Shown here: positions 12,472 to 35,071 of the stretch, piece by piece
Layout of the letters: the number at the start of each line of letters is the position of its first letter
How positions within the stretch are numbered: position 1 is the stretch's first letter
From: Elusimicrobiota bacterium
GTDB lineage: Bacteria > Elusimicrobiota > Elusimicrobia > Elusimicrobiales > UBA9959
Assembly: GCA_009773155.1 (NCBI GenBank)
Contig: WOVA01000021.1
Location: forward strand, 1-37,957
DNA length: 37,957 bases
Reading direction: 5' to 3'
Notes under the pieces: model-generated
The model's input: only the letters and a program-made list of their open reading frames with translations
Told to the model about the DNA's origin: nothing
The model's database searches: none
Made by a program: the position numbers and the translations under genes

Positions 12472-14142
12472 ATGCTGCTCCCCGTACTCCTCAGGAGAAA
12501 AGTTTCCTCTTTCGTGAACCGGCTGCATGCCCTGCGCGGCTGGGAGCTGGCCAAGACGCTCATGTTCCTCGCCGTCGGGCTGGGTATGCTGGCCATCCTC
12601 TACTTCTCGTTCCTCCGCCTGCTCTACTACCTCGACGGCGTGCAGCTGATAGGGCCGATGCTGTCCTGGAAACTCACCTCGATGGTGCTGCTCATCACCT
12701 TCTCGATGGTGATAGTCTCGTCGATAATAATCTCGATGACGACGCTCTACTATTCCTTCGACCTTAAGTTCCTCTTCTCCTGCCCGCTGGACCACCGCAC
12801 GCTGTTCATGGATAAAGCGCTCGAGACCGTCTTCTACTCGTCGTGGACGCTGTTCCTGGCCATCGTGCCCTATATCCTGGCGCTGATGCAGGTGAAGCAG
12901 CTTTCGCCGGCCTTCTTCGTCTCCTACTGCCTGCTGATGGTCCCGTTCGTGCTGGTCGCCGGCTCCTTCGGCGTCATCTTCAGCATGCTGGTCATGTACT
13001 GGTTCCCGTCGTCGCGCACCCGCGACCTCACCTGGCTGCTGGGCAGCCTCTCCGTCTCGCTGGTCTACGTGGCCTTCCGCTTCTCAAAGCCCGAGCAGCT
13101 GCTGCGTCCCGACTCGCTGGAGGTGGTGGCGCAGTACATCCAGTACCTGCAGTCCCCGACGGCGGAATACCTGCCGTCCTGGTGGGTCACCAAGGCCATG
13201 ATGGCCTACGGCGCGGAGCGCTGGCCGCAGTTCTTCCTCTACGGCGGGGCCCTGGCCGCCGGCGCCGCCGTCCTCTACTCCTTTATGTATTTCGTCTCCG
13301 GGCGCGTCTACGCGCAGGGCTTCAGCGGCGCGCAGTCCTCGCCCAAGTTCAAAGGCCTGCCCCGCCTGCTCTGGGAGCAGCGGCTGGTGCGCGCCGGCTG
13401 GCGCTGGCGCGGTGCGCTCACTGTGTACTGGAAGGACCGCCTCATGTTCGCGCGCGACGCGCGCTACTGGTCGCAGGTCATCCTGATAGGCGCGCTGATA
13501 ATGGTCTACCTCTTCAGCATACGCCAGCTGCCGCTGGACACGCCGGACATGAAGAGCATGGTCTCGTTCCTCAACATCGGCGTGGCGGGCTTTGTCATGG
13601 CCGCCATCGGCCTGCGCTTCACCTTCCCGTCGATAAGCCTGGAGGGCAACTGCTACTGGCTGGCCAGGAGCGCTCCTGTCACCGTGGCGCAGTTCATGCG
13701 CGAGAAGCTCCTTTTCACCCTGCCGCCGTCCATGCTCATCGGCGTCGTGCTGGTGCTGGCCTCCAACCATCTCCTGCAGGCCGACGCCTTCATCGCCTGG
13801 CTCTCGCTGTTCACCATCCTGGTCTCGTCGGTGGTCATCACCGTGATGGGAGTGGGCCTGGGCGCCCTGTTCCCCGATTTTCGCGTCGAGAACATCCACC
13901 AGATCGAGTCGTCCTACGGCGGCTTCATCTACATGGCCTGCGCCATGGGCTACCTGGCGCTGGCCATGGGCTTCGAGGCCTGGCCCGTGCAGATGCATTT
14001 CGCCGAGCGCTTCGGCCGCGCCGACCCCTGGGACTGGCGCGGCATCGCCTTCTCGGCGGCGGGCTTCTCCGTCGTGACGGCGGCCGCCCTGTACCTGCCC
14101 TGGAAGCTGGGCCGCGCCAAACTGGAGAGCCATGAGATATAA
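12472..14142 (+). CDS. ABC-type permease, large exporter type
   Basis: A 556-residue polytopic membrane protein with about 12 hydrophobic stretches in two groups (roughly residues 25-250 and 330-545) separated by a cytoplasmic part containing RLLWEQRLVRAGWRWRG and VYWKDRLMFARDARYWSQ. Resembles the large putative ABC exporter permeases of the ABC_tran_2 type. It directly follows the ATPase gene and is followed by, and overlaps, the deacetylase gene. High Ser content in helix faces (LLITFSMVIVSSIIISMTTLYYS) is notable. Function inferred from pairing only. Confidence 0.75.
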   Translation: MLLPVLLRRKVSSFVNRLHALRGWELAKTLMFLAVGLGMLAILYFSFLRLLYYLDGVQLIGPMLSWKLTSMVLLITFSMVIVSSIIISMTTLYYSFDLKFLFSCPLDHRTLFMDKALETVFYSSWTLFLAIVPYILALMQVKQLSPAFFVSYCLLMVPFVLVAGSFGVIFSMLVMYWFPSSRTRDLTWLLGSLSVSLVYVAFRFSKPEQLLRPDSLEVVAQYIQYLQSPTAEYLPSWWVTKAMMAYGAERWPQFFLYGGALAAGAAVLYSFMYFVSGRVYAQGFSGAQSSPKFKGLPRLLWEQRLVRAGWRWRGALTVYWKDRLMFARDARYWSQVILIGALIMVYLFSIRQLPLDTPDMKSMVSFLNIGVAGFVMAAIGLRFTFPSISLEGNCYWLARSAPVTVAQFMREKLLFTLPPSMLIGVVLVLASNHLLQADAFIAWLSLFTILVSSVVITVMGVGLGALFPDFRVENIHQIESSYGGFIYMACAMGYLALAMGFEAWPVQMHFAERFGRADPWDWRGIAFSAAGFSVVTAAALYLPWKLGRAKLESHEI

Positions 14143-14143
14143 T
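14138..14143 (+). promoter_or_regulatory. -10 element inside the permease stop region
   Basis: A perfect TATAAT whose bases overlap the permease stop codon; exactly 6 nt separate it from the in-frame GTG at 14150. It would give a leaderless deacetylase mRNA, so the deacetylase could be expressed apart from the operon. No -35 box is evident. Confidence 0.45.
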
Positions 14144-14149
14144 AGAAGT

Positions 14150-14875
14150 GTGGGAAAGTCGCTGAAGGCTATTTTGATCTGCCTGCTGGTCCCGGCCTGC
14201 GCCGGGGCTCAGGACTATGCCGGCAAGTTTTACACCGCCGGGCCGTCGACCGGGACCTTTTTCGCGCTGACCTACGACGACGGCCCCGGCGCCACCACGC
14301 CGGCCCTGCTGGACCTGCTCGCGTCCTCCGGCGCCAAGGCCACCTTCTTTATAAGCGGCCGGCCCTCCGGCAAGAACCTCTCCGCCCTCCAGCGCGCCTG
14401 CGCCGAAGGACACCTGGCCGCCAACCATACCCTCTCGCACAAGAACTATTTCAAGCTGGCCGTGGACCCGGACAAGGATAAGATCCTGGCGGCGGAACTG
14501 GAGCCGACCGGGAAGGCCATAGAGAAGGCCTGCGGCTACCGTCCGCGCATAATGCGCATGCCCAACGGCTATTCCCGCGACTGGGTGAGGAAGGTCGCCC
14601 GGGCCGAGGGCTATGCCCTGGTCAACTGGACCTACGGCAGCGACTGGACAAAGCTCTCCGACGAGGAGATGACGGCCGGCTACCTGAAGGCTTTGAAGCC
14701 CGGCGCCATACTTCTTTTCCACGACGGCGGGGGGAAAGTGCGTCAGCGCACCCTGCGCCTGACCCGGGCCGTCCTGGCCGAGGCCGCCAAGCGCGGCCTC
14801 GAGCCCGTAACCCTGGACAGGCTCCTTAATATTGGTGATATTGGGGACACAATACCTATTTCCTCCGGGAAATAG
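14150..14875 (+). CDS. Polysaccharide deacetylase (NodB domain)
   Basis: About 241 residues from GTG 14150, or 247 from ATG 14132, which overlaps the permease end. The GTG fits a cleaner signal peptide (MGKSLKAILICLLVPACAGA) and the nearby -10 element. Carbohydrate esterase 4 motifs are present: TYDDGPG (motif 1, catalytic and metal Asp), NHTLSH (motif 2, the two metal His), RMPNG (motif 3 region), WTYGSDW and ILLFHD (motif 5). It would N- or O-deacetylate peptidoglycan or a polysaccharide in the periplasm. The last residues (GDTIPISSGK) and the stop codon lie inside a hairpin repeat, so the natural C-terminus was probably changed by insertion. Confidence 0.85.
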   Translation: MGKSLKAILICLLVPACAGAQDYAGKFYTAGPSTGTFFALTYDDGPGATTPALLDLLASSGAKATFFISGRPSGKNLSALQRACAEGHLAANHTLSHKNYFKLAVDPDKDKILAAELEPTGKAIEKACGYRPRIMRMPNGYSRDWVRKVARAEGYALVNWTYGSDWTKLSDEEMTAGYLKALKPGAILLFHDGGGKVRQRTLRLTRAVLAEAAKRGLEPVTLDRLLNIGDIGDTIPISSGK

Positions 14876-16955: not shown

Positions 16956-17006
16956 ATTGGGGACACAATACCTATTTCCGCCGGAAATAGGTATTGTGTC
17001 CCCAAT
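16956..17006. repeat. REP-like hairpin copy 3
   Basis: Left arm 16959-16978, loop CGCCG, right arm 16984-17003. Pairing extends to ATT/AAT on the outside. It lies between the leftward DUF948-like operon and the rightward yjbQ gene. Confidence 0.95.
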
Positions 17007-17030: not shown

Positions 17031-17423
17031 ATGAAGAAGATACAGGTGAAAACGGCCAAGTCGGAGTTTAATGACATAACAGGTCTTGTGCAGGAGGCGG
17101 TGACGGAAGCGGGGTTGGAGGACGGGGTCTGCCACCTGTTCTGCCCGCACACCACCTGCGCGCTGGCGATAAACGAGAACGCCGACCCTTCCGTGAAGAG
17201 CGACGTCCTGGCGGGGCTGGCCAAGGTGATCGACGACGCTTACCCGTACCGCCACGGGGAGGGGAACTCCCCCGCGCATATCAAGAGCGTGCTGACCGGG
17301 CCCTCTTTGACGGTCTTCGTCGAGGGAGGGAGGTTGCAGTTGGGTACGTGGCAGGGCCTCTACCTGTGCGAGTACGACGGCCCCCGCTCCCGCCAGGTCT
17401 GGCTCAAGACCTCGCCGGTATAA
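17031..17423 (+). CDS. yjbQ: YjbQ/UPF0047 family protein
   Basis: A 130-residue single-domain protein of the YjbQ (UPF0047) family, sometimes annotated as secondary thiamine-phosphate synthase because the E. coli protein has weak activity of that kind; its real role is unknown. Family signatures are CPHTTCALAINENADP (residues 38-53, with H40, T42 and E49), YRHGEGNSPAHIKS and GTWQGLYLCEYDGPRSRQVW. It ends convergently with, and overlaps by 20 nt, the RAYT gene on the other strand, so the RAYT end lies right against the host gene. Confidence 0.93.
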   Translation: MKKIQVKTAKSEFNDITGLVQEAVTEAGLEDGVCHLFCPHTTCALAINENADPSVKSDVLAGLAKVIDDAYPYRHGEGNSPAHIKSVLTGPSLTVFVEGGRLQLGTWQGLYLCEYDGPRSRQVWLKTSPV

Positions 17424-18090
17424 GTTCACCTTCCCGGTCGGTACCCTTGCGGCCCGCCGGCCGCGGGAAAAGCTGCCGGCCGGTGAGCAGTTCCGCCCGG
17501 CTTATGAATTCTGGCGCCCCGGCGGGGCGGCCGGTGCGGGAATGATGTCTTAGTTCTTCAGCGGAATCCGGGTCATTTTTCAGCATTTTCATCCATTCAT
17601 CCGGGGATATCCCCGCTATCTTTTTATCGACGAGCGGATCGCAGGACGCCGCCCCCGCGTGGAACGCGGCGCTGGACCATTGATACCCCCAGGCCTGGCG
17701 GCAGATCCCGGCCCTGACCGGGTTTCTTTCCGTGTATAGGGCGGCCGTGACAAAATACCGCTCGTCCGTCGGGCAGGAATAGAATCGCCCCTGGAACAGG
17801 TACCCGCGGACATCTTCCCGCAAATTAACTTCACGCGTGTATTTACGGTGCGCCTCCCCTATGGCTCTGGCCAGTGAATCCCCGCTTTCGGGGACCGCGA
17901 CAATGTGCACATGGTTGGACATCAGGCAATAGGCCAGGAATTCGACGCCGTACTTTTTACCGTTCGCCTTCAGCAGGTTAAGGTATTTTCTCCGGTCAGC
18001 GTCGTTCAAAAAGACCTGCATCGACCGCACCCCCCGCTGCGTTATATGGTGCGGGCACTGCGGAATCACCACCCTCGCGATCCTTGGCAT
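17404..18090 (-). CDS. REP-associated tyrosine transposase (RAYT, Y1/HUH)
   Basis: A 228-residue single-strand transposase of the TnpA-REP/IS200-like group. The HUH metal site is H60-V-H62 in LMSNHVHIVAVP, and the probable nucleophile is the Tyr of LYTERNPVRAG (Y119). GRFYSCPTDERYF, WSSAAFH and the C-terminal LTGRQLFPRPAGRKGTDRE are typical of RAYTs. The ATG at 18090 has GGGAGGAGG four bases upstream; an in-frame ATG at 18108 lacks this support. RAYTs act on REP palindromes as single strands rather than moving as classical IS elements. The intact frame and nine near-identical hairpins suggest recent activity. The gene is visibly less GC-rich than its neighbours. Confidence 0.92.
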   Translation of the reverse strand: MPRIARVVIPQCPHHITQRGVRSMQVFLNDADRRKYLNLLKANGKKYGVEFLAYCLMSNHVHIVAVPESGDSLARAIGEAHRKYTREVNLREDVRGYLFQGRFYSCPTDERYFVTAALYTERNPVRAGICRQAWGYQWSSAAFHAGAASCDPLVDKKIAGISPDEWMKMLKNDPDSAEELRHHSRTGRPAGAPEFISRAELLTGRQLFPRPAGRKGTDREGELIPARS

Positions 18091-18106
18091 AAAACCTCCT
18101 CCCGAC

Positions 18107-18165
18107 AATAAGCATTATGTCCCCAAAAAGTGTAGACGGCGGGGGCGACAACGTGGTGTCGGGGG
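18107..18165 (-). repeat. Second repeat family, copy A (upstream of the RAYT gene)
   Basis: A decayed right arm (ATTATGTCCCC, 18114-18124) is followed by AAAAAGTGTAGA and GCGACAACGT-G-GTGTCG (to 18161). The latter contains a CGACA/TGTCG inverted repeat. Over 32 aligned bases (18130-18161 against 34985-35016) it matches the sequence ahead of the DUF1016 gene at about 27 positions. It is oriented the same way to both genes and lies 10-15 nt from a complete hairpin in both places. On the minus strand TTGTCG could act as a -35 box. Confidence 0.7.
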
Positions 18166-18174
18166 TATGTCGGG

Positions 18175-18219
18175 GGGGACACAATACCTATTTCGGTCCG
18201 AAATAGGTATTGTGTCCCC
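18175..18219. repeat. REP-like hairpin copy 4
   Basis: Left arm 18175-18194, loop GGTCC, right arm 18200-18219. Located between the divergent RAYT and ileS genes, the closest complete copy to the transposase. Confidence 0.95.
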
Positions 18220-25607: not shown

Positions 25608-25619
25608 GGAATAGGTATT

Positions 25620-25627
<8 letters not shown>
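25608..25627 (+). repeat. Solitary right arm containing the copA start codon
   Basis: GGAATAGGTATTGTGTCCCC differs from the complete right arm at one base (A to G at position 2) and has no left arm of its own. The GTG at 25620-25622 in its centre is the only plausible start of the following gene. It can pair with the left arm of copy 5 over 20 bases, with one G-U pair. Confidence 0.85.
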
Positions 25628-27812
<2,185 letters not shown>

Positions 27813-30218: not shown

Positions 30219-30273
30219 AATAGGGGGACACAATACCTATTTCGGCCGAAATAGGTATTGTGTCCCCCTATTT
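30218..30273. repeat. REP-like hairpin copy 7 (perfect 56-bp palindrome)
   Basis: Core left arm 30224-30243, loop GGCC, right arm 30248-30267, with flanks AAATAG/CTATTT extending the pairing to 56 bases without mismatch. It starts right at the thrS stop and sits between convergent genes. Confidence 0.95.
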
Positions 30274-30280
30274 ATTGCGG

Positions 30281-31306
30281 TTATTTCTCTAAAATGAGGA
30301 CGCCGTAGGGCGGTAAAGACTCCGGCAGCTCGCGCCGCGTCTCGAAAAGCGGCCGCCAGCCCTTCAGCGCCTCCGCGGCCAGCGGCACTGCCCCCGCCGT
30401 CGGATTCAGGATTATCGCGTACTTCCGCCACCAGCGCCGTAGCGCGCGCCCGCTCAGCCGTTCATCCAGGCCGACAGGCAGCGGGATATCCTTCCCTTTG
30501 ACCAGGACCTTGCTCATGGCTGTCAGTTCGCCGGCAACGCGCTCATAGCGCCCCCAGAGCTCCGGCCGCGAAGGCAGCGGCACACCCTCGTTGTCGGCGT
30601 ACTTGAAATAGAAAACGCCGGCCGCGCCGCGCGCCACCGACAGCCAGGTCATAAAGCGCACCTGCTCAAAAGTCGGCCAGCCGCCCACCTTCTTCGCCCG
30701 CCGCTGCGGGTACTCTATCCAGTCGAAAGCCTGCAGCACCGCCCAGAGCGGCTTCTCCGGCCGGGCCGGGTCCGTGAGCCGCACGCCTTCCCGCACCAGC
30801 GCCAACTCGCGCCCCACCGACTCCAGCGGCAGATGCGGCACCGGGTACCAGTCCAGCATGACGATATCCGCGGCCGCGCCGTAAACCATCGCCGGCAGGC
30901 CGTGGCCCATCACAAAAGCCGTCGGCTGGCCGGGCGACCACTCCTTGACCCGCCTGTCCAGCTTCAGCAGGTCTTCTGCTTTCATCCAGCCCACTTCGGG
31001 CTCGTCCTTCAGATACCAGGCCAAAACCGGCCAGCGCCTGGCCTTTTCCGAGTAAGCCGACTCCATCGCCTTGTAGGGCGGCGCCACCATGCGCATGTTC
31101 AGCCCGCGCGCGGTCTCGGCCAGGCCGGCCAGCTTCTCCGGATCGTCAAGGTAGGTCTGGAAGCAGTTGAACCCCGAATTTTTAAGCACCGCCAGCGAAG
31201 CCGGCTCGTTCACCCCGTACACGCAGACCGGGAAATCCCCGGCCAGCGCCGCGGGGGGGAGGATAAGGGCGGCCAGCGCCGCCGAAATACGTATTATGTC
31301 CCTCAT
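30281..31306 (-). CDS. Exported TIM-barrel-like protein, glycosidase-like, function unknown
   Basis: 341 residues with a Sec signal peptide (ISAALAALILPPAALA) and a mature part that reads like a (beta/alpha)8 barrel: YGVNEPASLAVLKNSGFNCFQTYL, LNMRMVAP, PVLAWYLKDEPEVG (an Asp/Glu pair at a strand end, as in many glycoside hydrolases), DIVMLDWYPVP, LWAVLQAFDW and GAAGVFYFKYAD. A short C-terminal beta domain follows (YAIILNPTAGAVPL ... PYGVLILEK). The family is not recognised with certainty. The ATG at 31306 follows a -10 element by 6 nt. The first nine codons match a decayed hairpin arm. Substrate unknown. Confidence 0.65.
   Translation of the reverse strand: MRDIIRISAALAALILPPAALAGDFPVCVYGVNEPASLAVLKNSGFNCFQTYLDDPEKLAGLAETARGLNMRMVAPPYKAMESAYSEKARRWPVLAWYLKDEPEVGWMKAEDLLKLDRRVKEWSPGQPTAFVMGHGLPAMVYGAAADIVMLDWYPVPHLPLESVGRELALVREGVRLTDPARPEKPLWAVLQAFDWIEYPQRRAKKVGGWPTFEQVRFMTWLSVARGAAGVFYFKYADNEGVPLPSRPELWGRYERVAGELTAMSKVLVKGKDIPLPVGLDERLSGRALRRWWRKYAIILNPTAGAVPLAAEALKGWRPLFETRRELPESLPPYGVLILEK
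31281..31305 (-). repeat. Decayed REP-like left arm used as coding sequence
   Basis: On the minus strand, 21 of 25 positions match the left arm plus the GGCCG loop of the intact copies (differences at positions 1, 8, 14 and 24). It begins in the first codon of the exported TIM-barrel-like gene and encodes RDIIRIS, in the frame in which an intact arm encodes GDTIPIS. Confidence 0.7.
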
Positions 31307-31312
31307 ATCTTC

Positions 31313-31318
31313 ATTATA
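31313..31318 (-). promoter_or_regulatory. Extended -10 element, leaderless start of TIM-barrel-like gene
   Basis: On the minus strand TGG-TATAAT, then 6 nt, then ATG at 31306. There is no Shine-Dalgarno motif. Confidence 0.5.
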
Positions 31319-31324
31319 CCAAAT

Positions 31325-31368
31325 GGGGACACAATACCTATTTCGGCCGAAATAGGTATTGTGTCCCT
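31325..31368. repeat. REP-like hairpin copy 8
   Basis: Left arm 31325-31344, loop GGCC, right arm 31349-31368, with one mismatch at the outermost base (T for C). Located between divergent genes, close to both promoters. Confidence 0.95.
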
Positions 31369-34965: not shown

Positions 34966-35020
34966 AAGTCCCCCTGTAAAAATAGTGTAGAGAGGGGGTG
35001 CGACAACGTAGTGTCGCCCG
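34966..35020 (-). repeat. Second repeat family, copy B (upstream of the DUF1016 gene)
   Basis: The same unit as before the RAYT gene: AAGTCCCCC, an A-rich step, GTGTAGA (34985-34991), and GCGACAACGT-A-GTGTCGC with a GCGACA/TGTCGC inverted repeat (35000-35017). It is oriented identically relative to the gene and followed by a complete hairpin. On the minus strand TTGTCG and TATTTT are separated by 16 nt and could be a promoter. Confidence 0.7.
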
Positions 35021-35027
35021 GAAATAG

Positions 35028-35071
35028 GGGGACACAATACCTATTTCGGCCGAAATAGGTATTGTGTCCCC
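35028..35071. repeat. REP-like hairpin copy 9
   Basis: Left arm 35028-35047, loop GGCC, right arm 35052-35071, a perfect 44-bp palindrome. The bases just before it (GAAATAG) repeat the beginning of a right arm, so this may be the stub of a former neighbouring copy; copy 7 has the same GAAATAG stub. Confidence 0.95.

Follow-up and report, generated by a model that had tools for sequence, protein, structure and literature searches.

Palindromic repeats within bacterial genes are known, and those found at N-termini are usually suspected of reflecting misannotated starts. The closest described systems are the TIRtrons, whose GGGGWSAS terminal repeats lie on either side of TIRYT genes and are found singly, as dimers, and in groups (PMC3733652). 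The repeat described here shares with these TIRYT/RAYT systems a GGGGWSAS start (GGGGACAC), self-complementarity, single, dimeric, and grouped copies, and a Y1/RAYT-like gene located between copies, whereas that survey makes no mention of Elusimicrobiota and its passages dealing with TIRtrons do not discuss the recruitment of half arms to gene starts (PMC3733652). Rickettsia palindromic elements (RPEs) are likewise palindromic repeats read in frame within proteins, and for RPEs the products are expressed (PMC3733652). As far as their description in the survey allows comparison, however, RPEs are whole elements that add residues, whereas in our case the length is unchanged, as a half arm takes the place of an existing terminus.

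Two further systems are relevant. The Yersinia repeat RU-2 in YPO1552 provides a precedent for a repeat within a gene, but it is a 168-bp MITE-like unit in a single gene, for which the published account, in its part on this unit, reports no second conserving species (PMC2759123). The termini of GTAG REPs give TAG stop codons to flanking ORFs (PMC3733652), as seen here in a deacetylase and a branching-enzyme gene; these REPs nevertheless belong to a different repeat family, and in the present genus gene starts and signal peptides are also involved, as confirmed by orthologues. Our literature search for REPs in Elusimicrobiota found none. Palindromic repeats in genes are known, and what is new is an unusually well-controlled case in a phylum without such repeats in the searched literature. 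In this case, the doubt about misannotation is largely removed by orthologues, by a start codon whose position is set by a conserved promoter of leaderless type, and by identical 30 nt at the gene start of a second species.

A palindromic repeat linked to a RAYT-like gene

We analyzed a stretch of 37,957 nucleotides from an Elusimicrobiota genome (G000), hereafter the window, together with the congeners G017 (UBA11179), G018 (WAS_Bin_5), and G019 (MAG Ess09-09) and other genomes of the family. The window contains nine two-arm copies of a near-perfect palindrome, GGGGACACAATACCTATTTC-(loop)-GAAATAGGTATTGTGTCCCC, and the whole genome contains 61 arms in about 31 clusters (the clusters being counted by hand), whereas the reversed pattern gave no match genome-wide. 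Through both arms, five of the six reading frames are free of stop codons. Other genera of the family carry variant forms of the repeat.

Copies of the repeat at 16959-17003 and 18175-18219 flank a gene for a RAYT/TIRYT-like Y1 HUH transposase (17404..18090, minus strand, ATG at 18090), and a decayed half arm lies at about 18104-18121, directly upstream of the ribosome-binding site of this gene. The protein exceeded the cut-off of PF01797 (E 3e-8) and matched NF047646 (REP_Tyr_transpos) over the whole model length with an E-value of 7.7e-14, although its score of 51.8 bits lies below the curated cut-off of 80. The original prediction named the repeat a REP element. The GTAG/GTGG at the hairpin foot of canonical REPs is absent from this repeat, which ends GGGG...CCCC, and most intact copies carry at their end GGGGACAC, which fits GGGGWSAS. 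The repeat is thus closer to the GGGGWSAS terminal repeats (TIRs) associated with RAYT genes, whose motif it fits, than to a canonical GTAG REP. In TIR terms, the intact palindrome would be a dimer and a half arm a monomer.

Two other repeats were observed beside this family. A second palindromic repeat around GCGACAACGTNGTGTCGC adjoins copies of the main repeat at 18125-18181 (beside the RAYT gene), at 34980-35036, and downstream of L107:6172. A sister repeat, GAAATAGRTATACTGTCCC (L133:6140-6181; L105:5079-5129), is present in G000, and in G018 it occupies the site downstream of the secreted-protein gene described below; in G054 it is the main variant found.

A half arm at the start of a gene for a predicted secreted protein

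The gene at 30281..31306 (minus strand) encodes a TIM-barrel protein of 341 aa with a glycosidase-like fold and the signal peptide MRDIIRISAALAALILPPAALA, for which export is predicted. It is followed downstream by an intact palindromic repeat (30224..30268), and a further intact copy with both arms (31325..31368) is located upstream, as had been claimed. This copy begins at 31325, with 18 nt between it and the gene; it is present at the same site in G017 and reduced in G019. In Pfam, no significant family was found for the protein (GH42 E=0.24). The AlphaFold model (mean pLDDT 87.5, pTM 0.86) showed an N-terminal helix at residues 2-14 and a low-confidence stretch at 14-22, followed by a confident TIM barrel and a C-terminal beta domain, and the nearest solved structures in Foldseek were GH13 and GH30 barrel enzymes. 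The natural reading of this model is that the N-terminus up to ...AALA would be a signal peptide.

The start of this gene contains a single half arm with loop bases, AGGGACATAATACGTATTTCGGC (31281..31303, minus strand), which occupies codons 2-8/9. Read on the minus strand from 31306, the start sequence of G000 (ATGAGGGACATAATACGTATTTC) runs ATG A GGGACATAATACGTATTTCGGCGG, giving M-RDIIRIS-A; it also reads ATG A GGGACATAATACGTATTTC GGC GG (MRDIIRIS). The half arm thus supplies the seven codons that follow the ATG of the predicted exported protein. Within the arm core (31284-31302), 17 of 19 positions agree with one arm of the palindrome GGGACACAATACCTATTTC-loop-GAAATAGGTATTGTGTCCC; when the A that follows ATG and the loop bases are included, the match is 21/25. 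The original prediction had reported this match to the left arm plus loop, and its count, coordinates, and RDIIRIS reading were all correct. An unmodified arm in the frame of this gene would read RDTIPIS. The two deviating core bases give T>I and P>R, both amino-acid changing; the former is a step toward hydrophobic and the latter toward basic character, as would be expected of tuning to a signal peptide. The further claim that GDTIPIS is encoded elsewhere by an intact arm read in this frame was also correct, and we located this reading at the C-terminus of the deacetylase ORF 14132-14875 (GDIGDTIPISSGK followed by the stop codon), with further DTIPIS or GDTIPIS readings in L105, L107, and L121.

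Comparison with orthologues

Orthologues of the gene were found in 23 of 59 genomes of the family, and 22 of them have a readable start. The first 30 nt of the gene in G019, which is an independent MAG and belongs to another species, are identical to those of G000, and the gene overall is 85% identical. The starts of G017 (MKKLVLIS, MKKLVLISAALAAF) and G018 (MRNFFLGC, MRNFFLGCAALAAL) have the same length and are devoid of the arm, and the first 36 nt align to both of them without an indel, with different sequence. When 20 orthologous starts were compared with the arm in register, 17 positions matched in G000 and G019, 11 in G017, and 4-8 elsewhere. The arm was present only in G000 and G019 and absent from G017, G018, and 18 more orthologues; among the 22 readable starts, MRDIIRIS did not occur outside the genus, so that the refuting condition named in the original prediction did not arise. 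The expectation that some orthologues would begin directly at the Ala-rich part was not borne out, since none of this kind was found and the congeners have different starts of the same length. Considering that the congener starts are equally long and that there is no indel over the first 36 nt, the sequences indicate that the arm overwrote an existing signal-peptide start and is not an extension.

In both G000 and G019 the arm follows the conserved ATG in frame, and it is predicted from sequence to be translated. The proposal of the original prediction, that a REP-type element was exapted as coding sequence, is therefore supported by the arm match, the frame, the replacement seen among orthologues, and the second species. 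We consider it probable (about 0.82) that a half-palindrome of the RAYT-associated repeat became the start of an existing secreted-protein gene in an ancestor of at least G000 and G019.

In terms of timing, outgroup-polarised sites (a syntenic block and two further genes, summed by hand) grouped G000 with G017 at 122 positions, G017 with G019 at 103, and G000 with G019 at 86, and the rest of the target gene does not group G000 with G019. By these sites, the three genomes form a near trichotomy in which G000 plus G019 is the least favoured pair. Accordingly, the arm may be older than the split of G017 and may have been lost there, in which case the 11/19 match in G017 is perhaps a trace. Alternatively, it may have arisen on a very short branch or may have been exchanged by recombination.

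Origin of the arm and alternative explanations

In the course of this recruitment, a monomer arm would have come to occupy the codons immediately following the start codon, either by landing there or by being copied. In its original frame it would have read R-D-T-I-P-I-S, and two amino-acid-changing substitutions would have given RDIIRIS, which may form the basic n-region of the signal peptide together with the first part of its hydrophobic stretch. We infer export and cleavage of the peptide, as well as selection of both changes.

These observations fit both an insertion in which the old start was lost and a templated copying event, and the equal length together with the 18 nt distance leans mildly to copying. 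In the latter case, the gene start would have been rewritten from the adjoining intact repeat, by template switch or short gene conversion and with no insertion; this alternative concerns the mechanism only, as origin and use would be the same. It is consistent with the indel-free alignment of the first 36 nt to G017 and G018, with a match that begins right after ATG(A) and ends at the shared GCGGCG, with the intact donor 18 nt away, and with the arms of the CopA-like and BtuF-like genes described below, which also adjoin an intact copy. However, signal-peptide starts vary in length anyway, so that the equal length may be a coincidence, and the promoter region of G000 and G019 is also unlike that of G017 and G018. 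We regard templated rewriting as a real possibility that falls somewhat short of even odds. By eye, no second arm that might once have partnered the half copy was recognizable within the gene. Derivation of the AALAAL that follows the arm from a second arm was rejected, because AALAAL is conserved with the congeners.

A different explanation is that the arm is kept for a role at the DNA or RNA level, for example pairing with its intact neighbour, and that its coding is incidental. G000 and G019 share 30/30 nt here, a high value for this gene, which shows full identity between the two genomes in 12 of 333 windows of 27 nt, and pairing would be possible between the half arm and the 3' arm of the intact repeat. 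However, the predicted mRNA begins at the ATG, so the intact copy would not be co-transcribed, both departures from the arm core alter amino acids, and the gene is kept in G017 without the arm. We consider such a role unlikely.

If translation began further downstream, the arm would be a 5' leader of a gene with a wrongly assigned start, and the REP survey warns, in its treatment of N-terminal REPs, that many of them are misannotated leaders (PMC3733652). The position of the promoter speaks against this for the start at 31306. A -10 box TATAAT of the extended TGn type lies at 31313..31318 (minus strand), 6 nt from the ATG, and in 21 of the 22 orthologues with a readable start a TANAAT box, nearly always extended by TGn, stands 6-7 nt before the same ATG, which fixes the start codon. 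There is no other in-frame ATG before codon 73, and a GTG near codon 29 would remove the signal peptide. A wrong start is thus very unlikely. Since the -10 box is 6-7 nt from the ATG and a Shine-Dalgarno-like sequence upstream of the ATG is absent in nearly all of the 22 orthologues, the mRNA is probably leaderless, with its 5' end predicted at the ATG. As an observation in its own right, the placement of a conserved extended -10 box immediately ahead of the ATG in this gene (30281-31306) and 21 orthologues suggests that this Elusimicrobiota family uses leaderless mRNAs.

A further, very unlikely explanation is that a signal-peptide start drifted toward arm likeness by chance: the G017 start is already at 11/19 in register and matches of 16/19 at gene starts do turn up across about 60 searched genomes (for example a MurC-like start in another genome of the family), but at least 17/19 is expected by computation at 1.6e-9 per position, 1.2e-4 per window, and 0.009 per genome, a 17/19 match within 100 nt of an intact copy at about 1e-7, orthologues other than those of G000, G019, and G017 match at 4-8 positions, and unpaired arms occur at five further gene ends of the same genome. 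In shuffled windows, 0.01 19-mer matches with at most three mismatches were expected per window. The amino-acid motif MRDI by itself was rejected as evidence, because such starts arise independently, as in the MurC-like gene and in a BtuF-like orthologue of G042 that begins MRDIFLLLL without a repeat.

Arms at other gene ends

All six three-arm clusters of G000 have their unpaired third arm in a gene end, namely the start of the secreted-protein gene, the signal peptide of a BtuF-like protein, the C-terminus of an amidase, the GTG start of a CopA-like gene, the C-terminus of a nuclease, and the stop codon of a branching enzyme. We rejected this 6/6 count as statistical proof of enrichment, because short intergenic gaps put many third arms in genes anyway. 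Accordingly, weight was placed on orthologue comparisons. Across the four congeners, other unpaired arms were likewise located in gene ends.

The second unpaired arm in the window (25608..25626, plus strand) contains a GTG (25620) that is the only plausible start of a CopA-like heavy-metal P-type ATPase (25620..27812, plus strand; VSPNLKKAVIPLEG...). This start was found in G000 and in G019 (VSPDLKKA; L116:16497-18701), whereas in G018 and in most other genera the orthologue has an ordinary ATG that precedes this motif. In G000, an intact repeat lies about 28 nt upstream of this gene. The BtuF-like binding proteins (L101:8065-8889(-), L122:2069-2901(+), L130:1494-2336(-), L139:1257-2138(-)) carry in 4/4 congeners a predicted signal-peptide core derived from the arm, TTAATAGGTATTGTGTCCCC, which reads LIGIVSP (LIGIASP in G019); such a core occurred in 0 of 16 loci examined in other genera, which have unrelated signal peptides. 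The C-terminus NWGHNTxFDGR of the Amidase_2 proteins (L106:257-1738(+), L126:1815-2948(-), L131:13040-14173(+), L141:876-2033(+)) represents arm plus loop in another frame, also in 4/4 congeners, and was found in none of the loci examined outside the genus. The C-terminus of a PD-(D/E)XK nuclease and the stop codon of a GH57 branching enzyme lie in a repeat arm in both G000 and G017.

Recruitment of an intact repeat was seen in the polysaccharide deacetylase gene (14132..14875, plus strand), whose last codons and TAG come from the repeat (GDTIPISSGK-stop). In G019 the coding arm of this gene is gone (GDAKPVPSGK-stop), and the SGK-TAG and a decayed partner arm are kept, which suggests that the recruitment of an arm can be reversed. 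The parallel cases range from recent recruitment to recruitment shared by the whole genus, and as a set they make it testable how selfish repeats turn into protein termini.

As a general scheme, a repeat that is mobile or copied locally would place one of its arms on a gene end, where this arm would usually be readable because five of the six frames are stop-free. If the new terminus works, the arm would be preserved by its reading frame, unlike non-coding arms, which can decay, and the repeat-derived peptide would be adapted by point changes. More broadly, and as a tentative proposal only, half-palindromes of the RAYT-linked repeat may be recurrent raw material for gene ends in this genus: start codons (GTG/ATG-TCC-CC), signal peptides, C-termini, and stop codons would receive an arm from an intact neighbour, perhaps through templated copying and not by insertion, and the frame would afterwards protect the arm while unprotected arms decay.

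From a mechanical scan for ORF starts within arms, many cases (L115, L103:2011, L209) were left out as likely artefacts with a normal ATG downstream. Separately, two neighbouring Schlafen/AlbA-like genes (L103:2001-6785(+)) begin at or beside an arm, and in one of them the GTG of the arm is replaced by ATG (MSPNAEELKLL).
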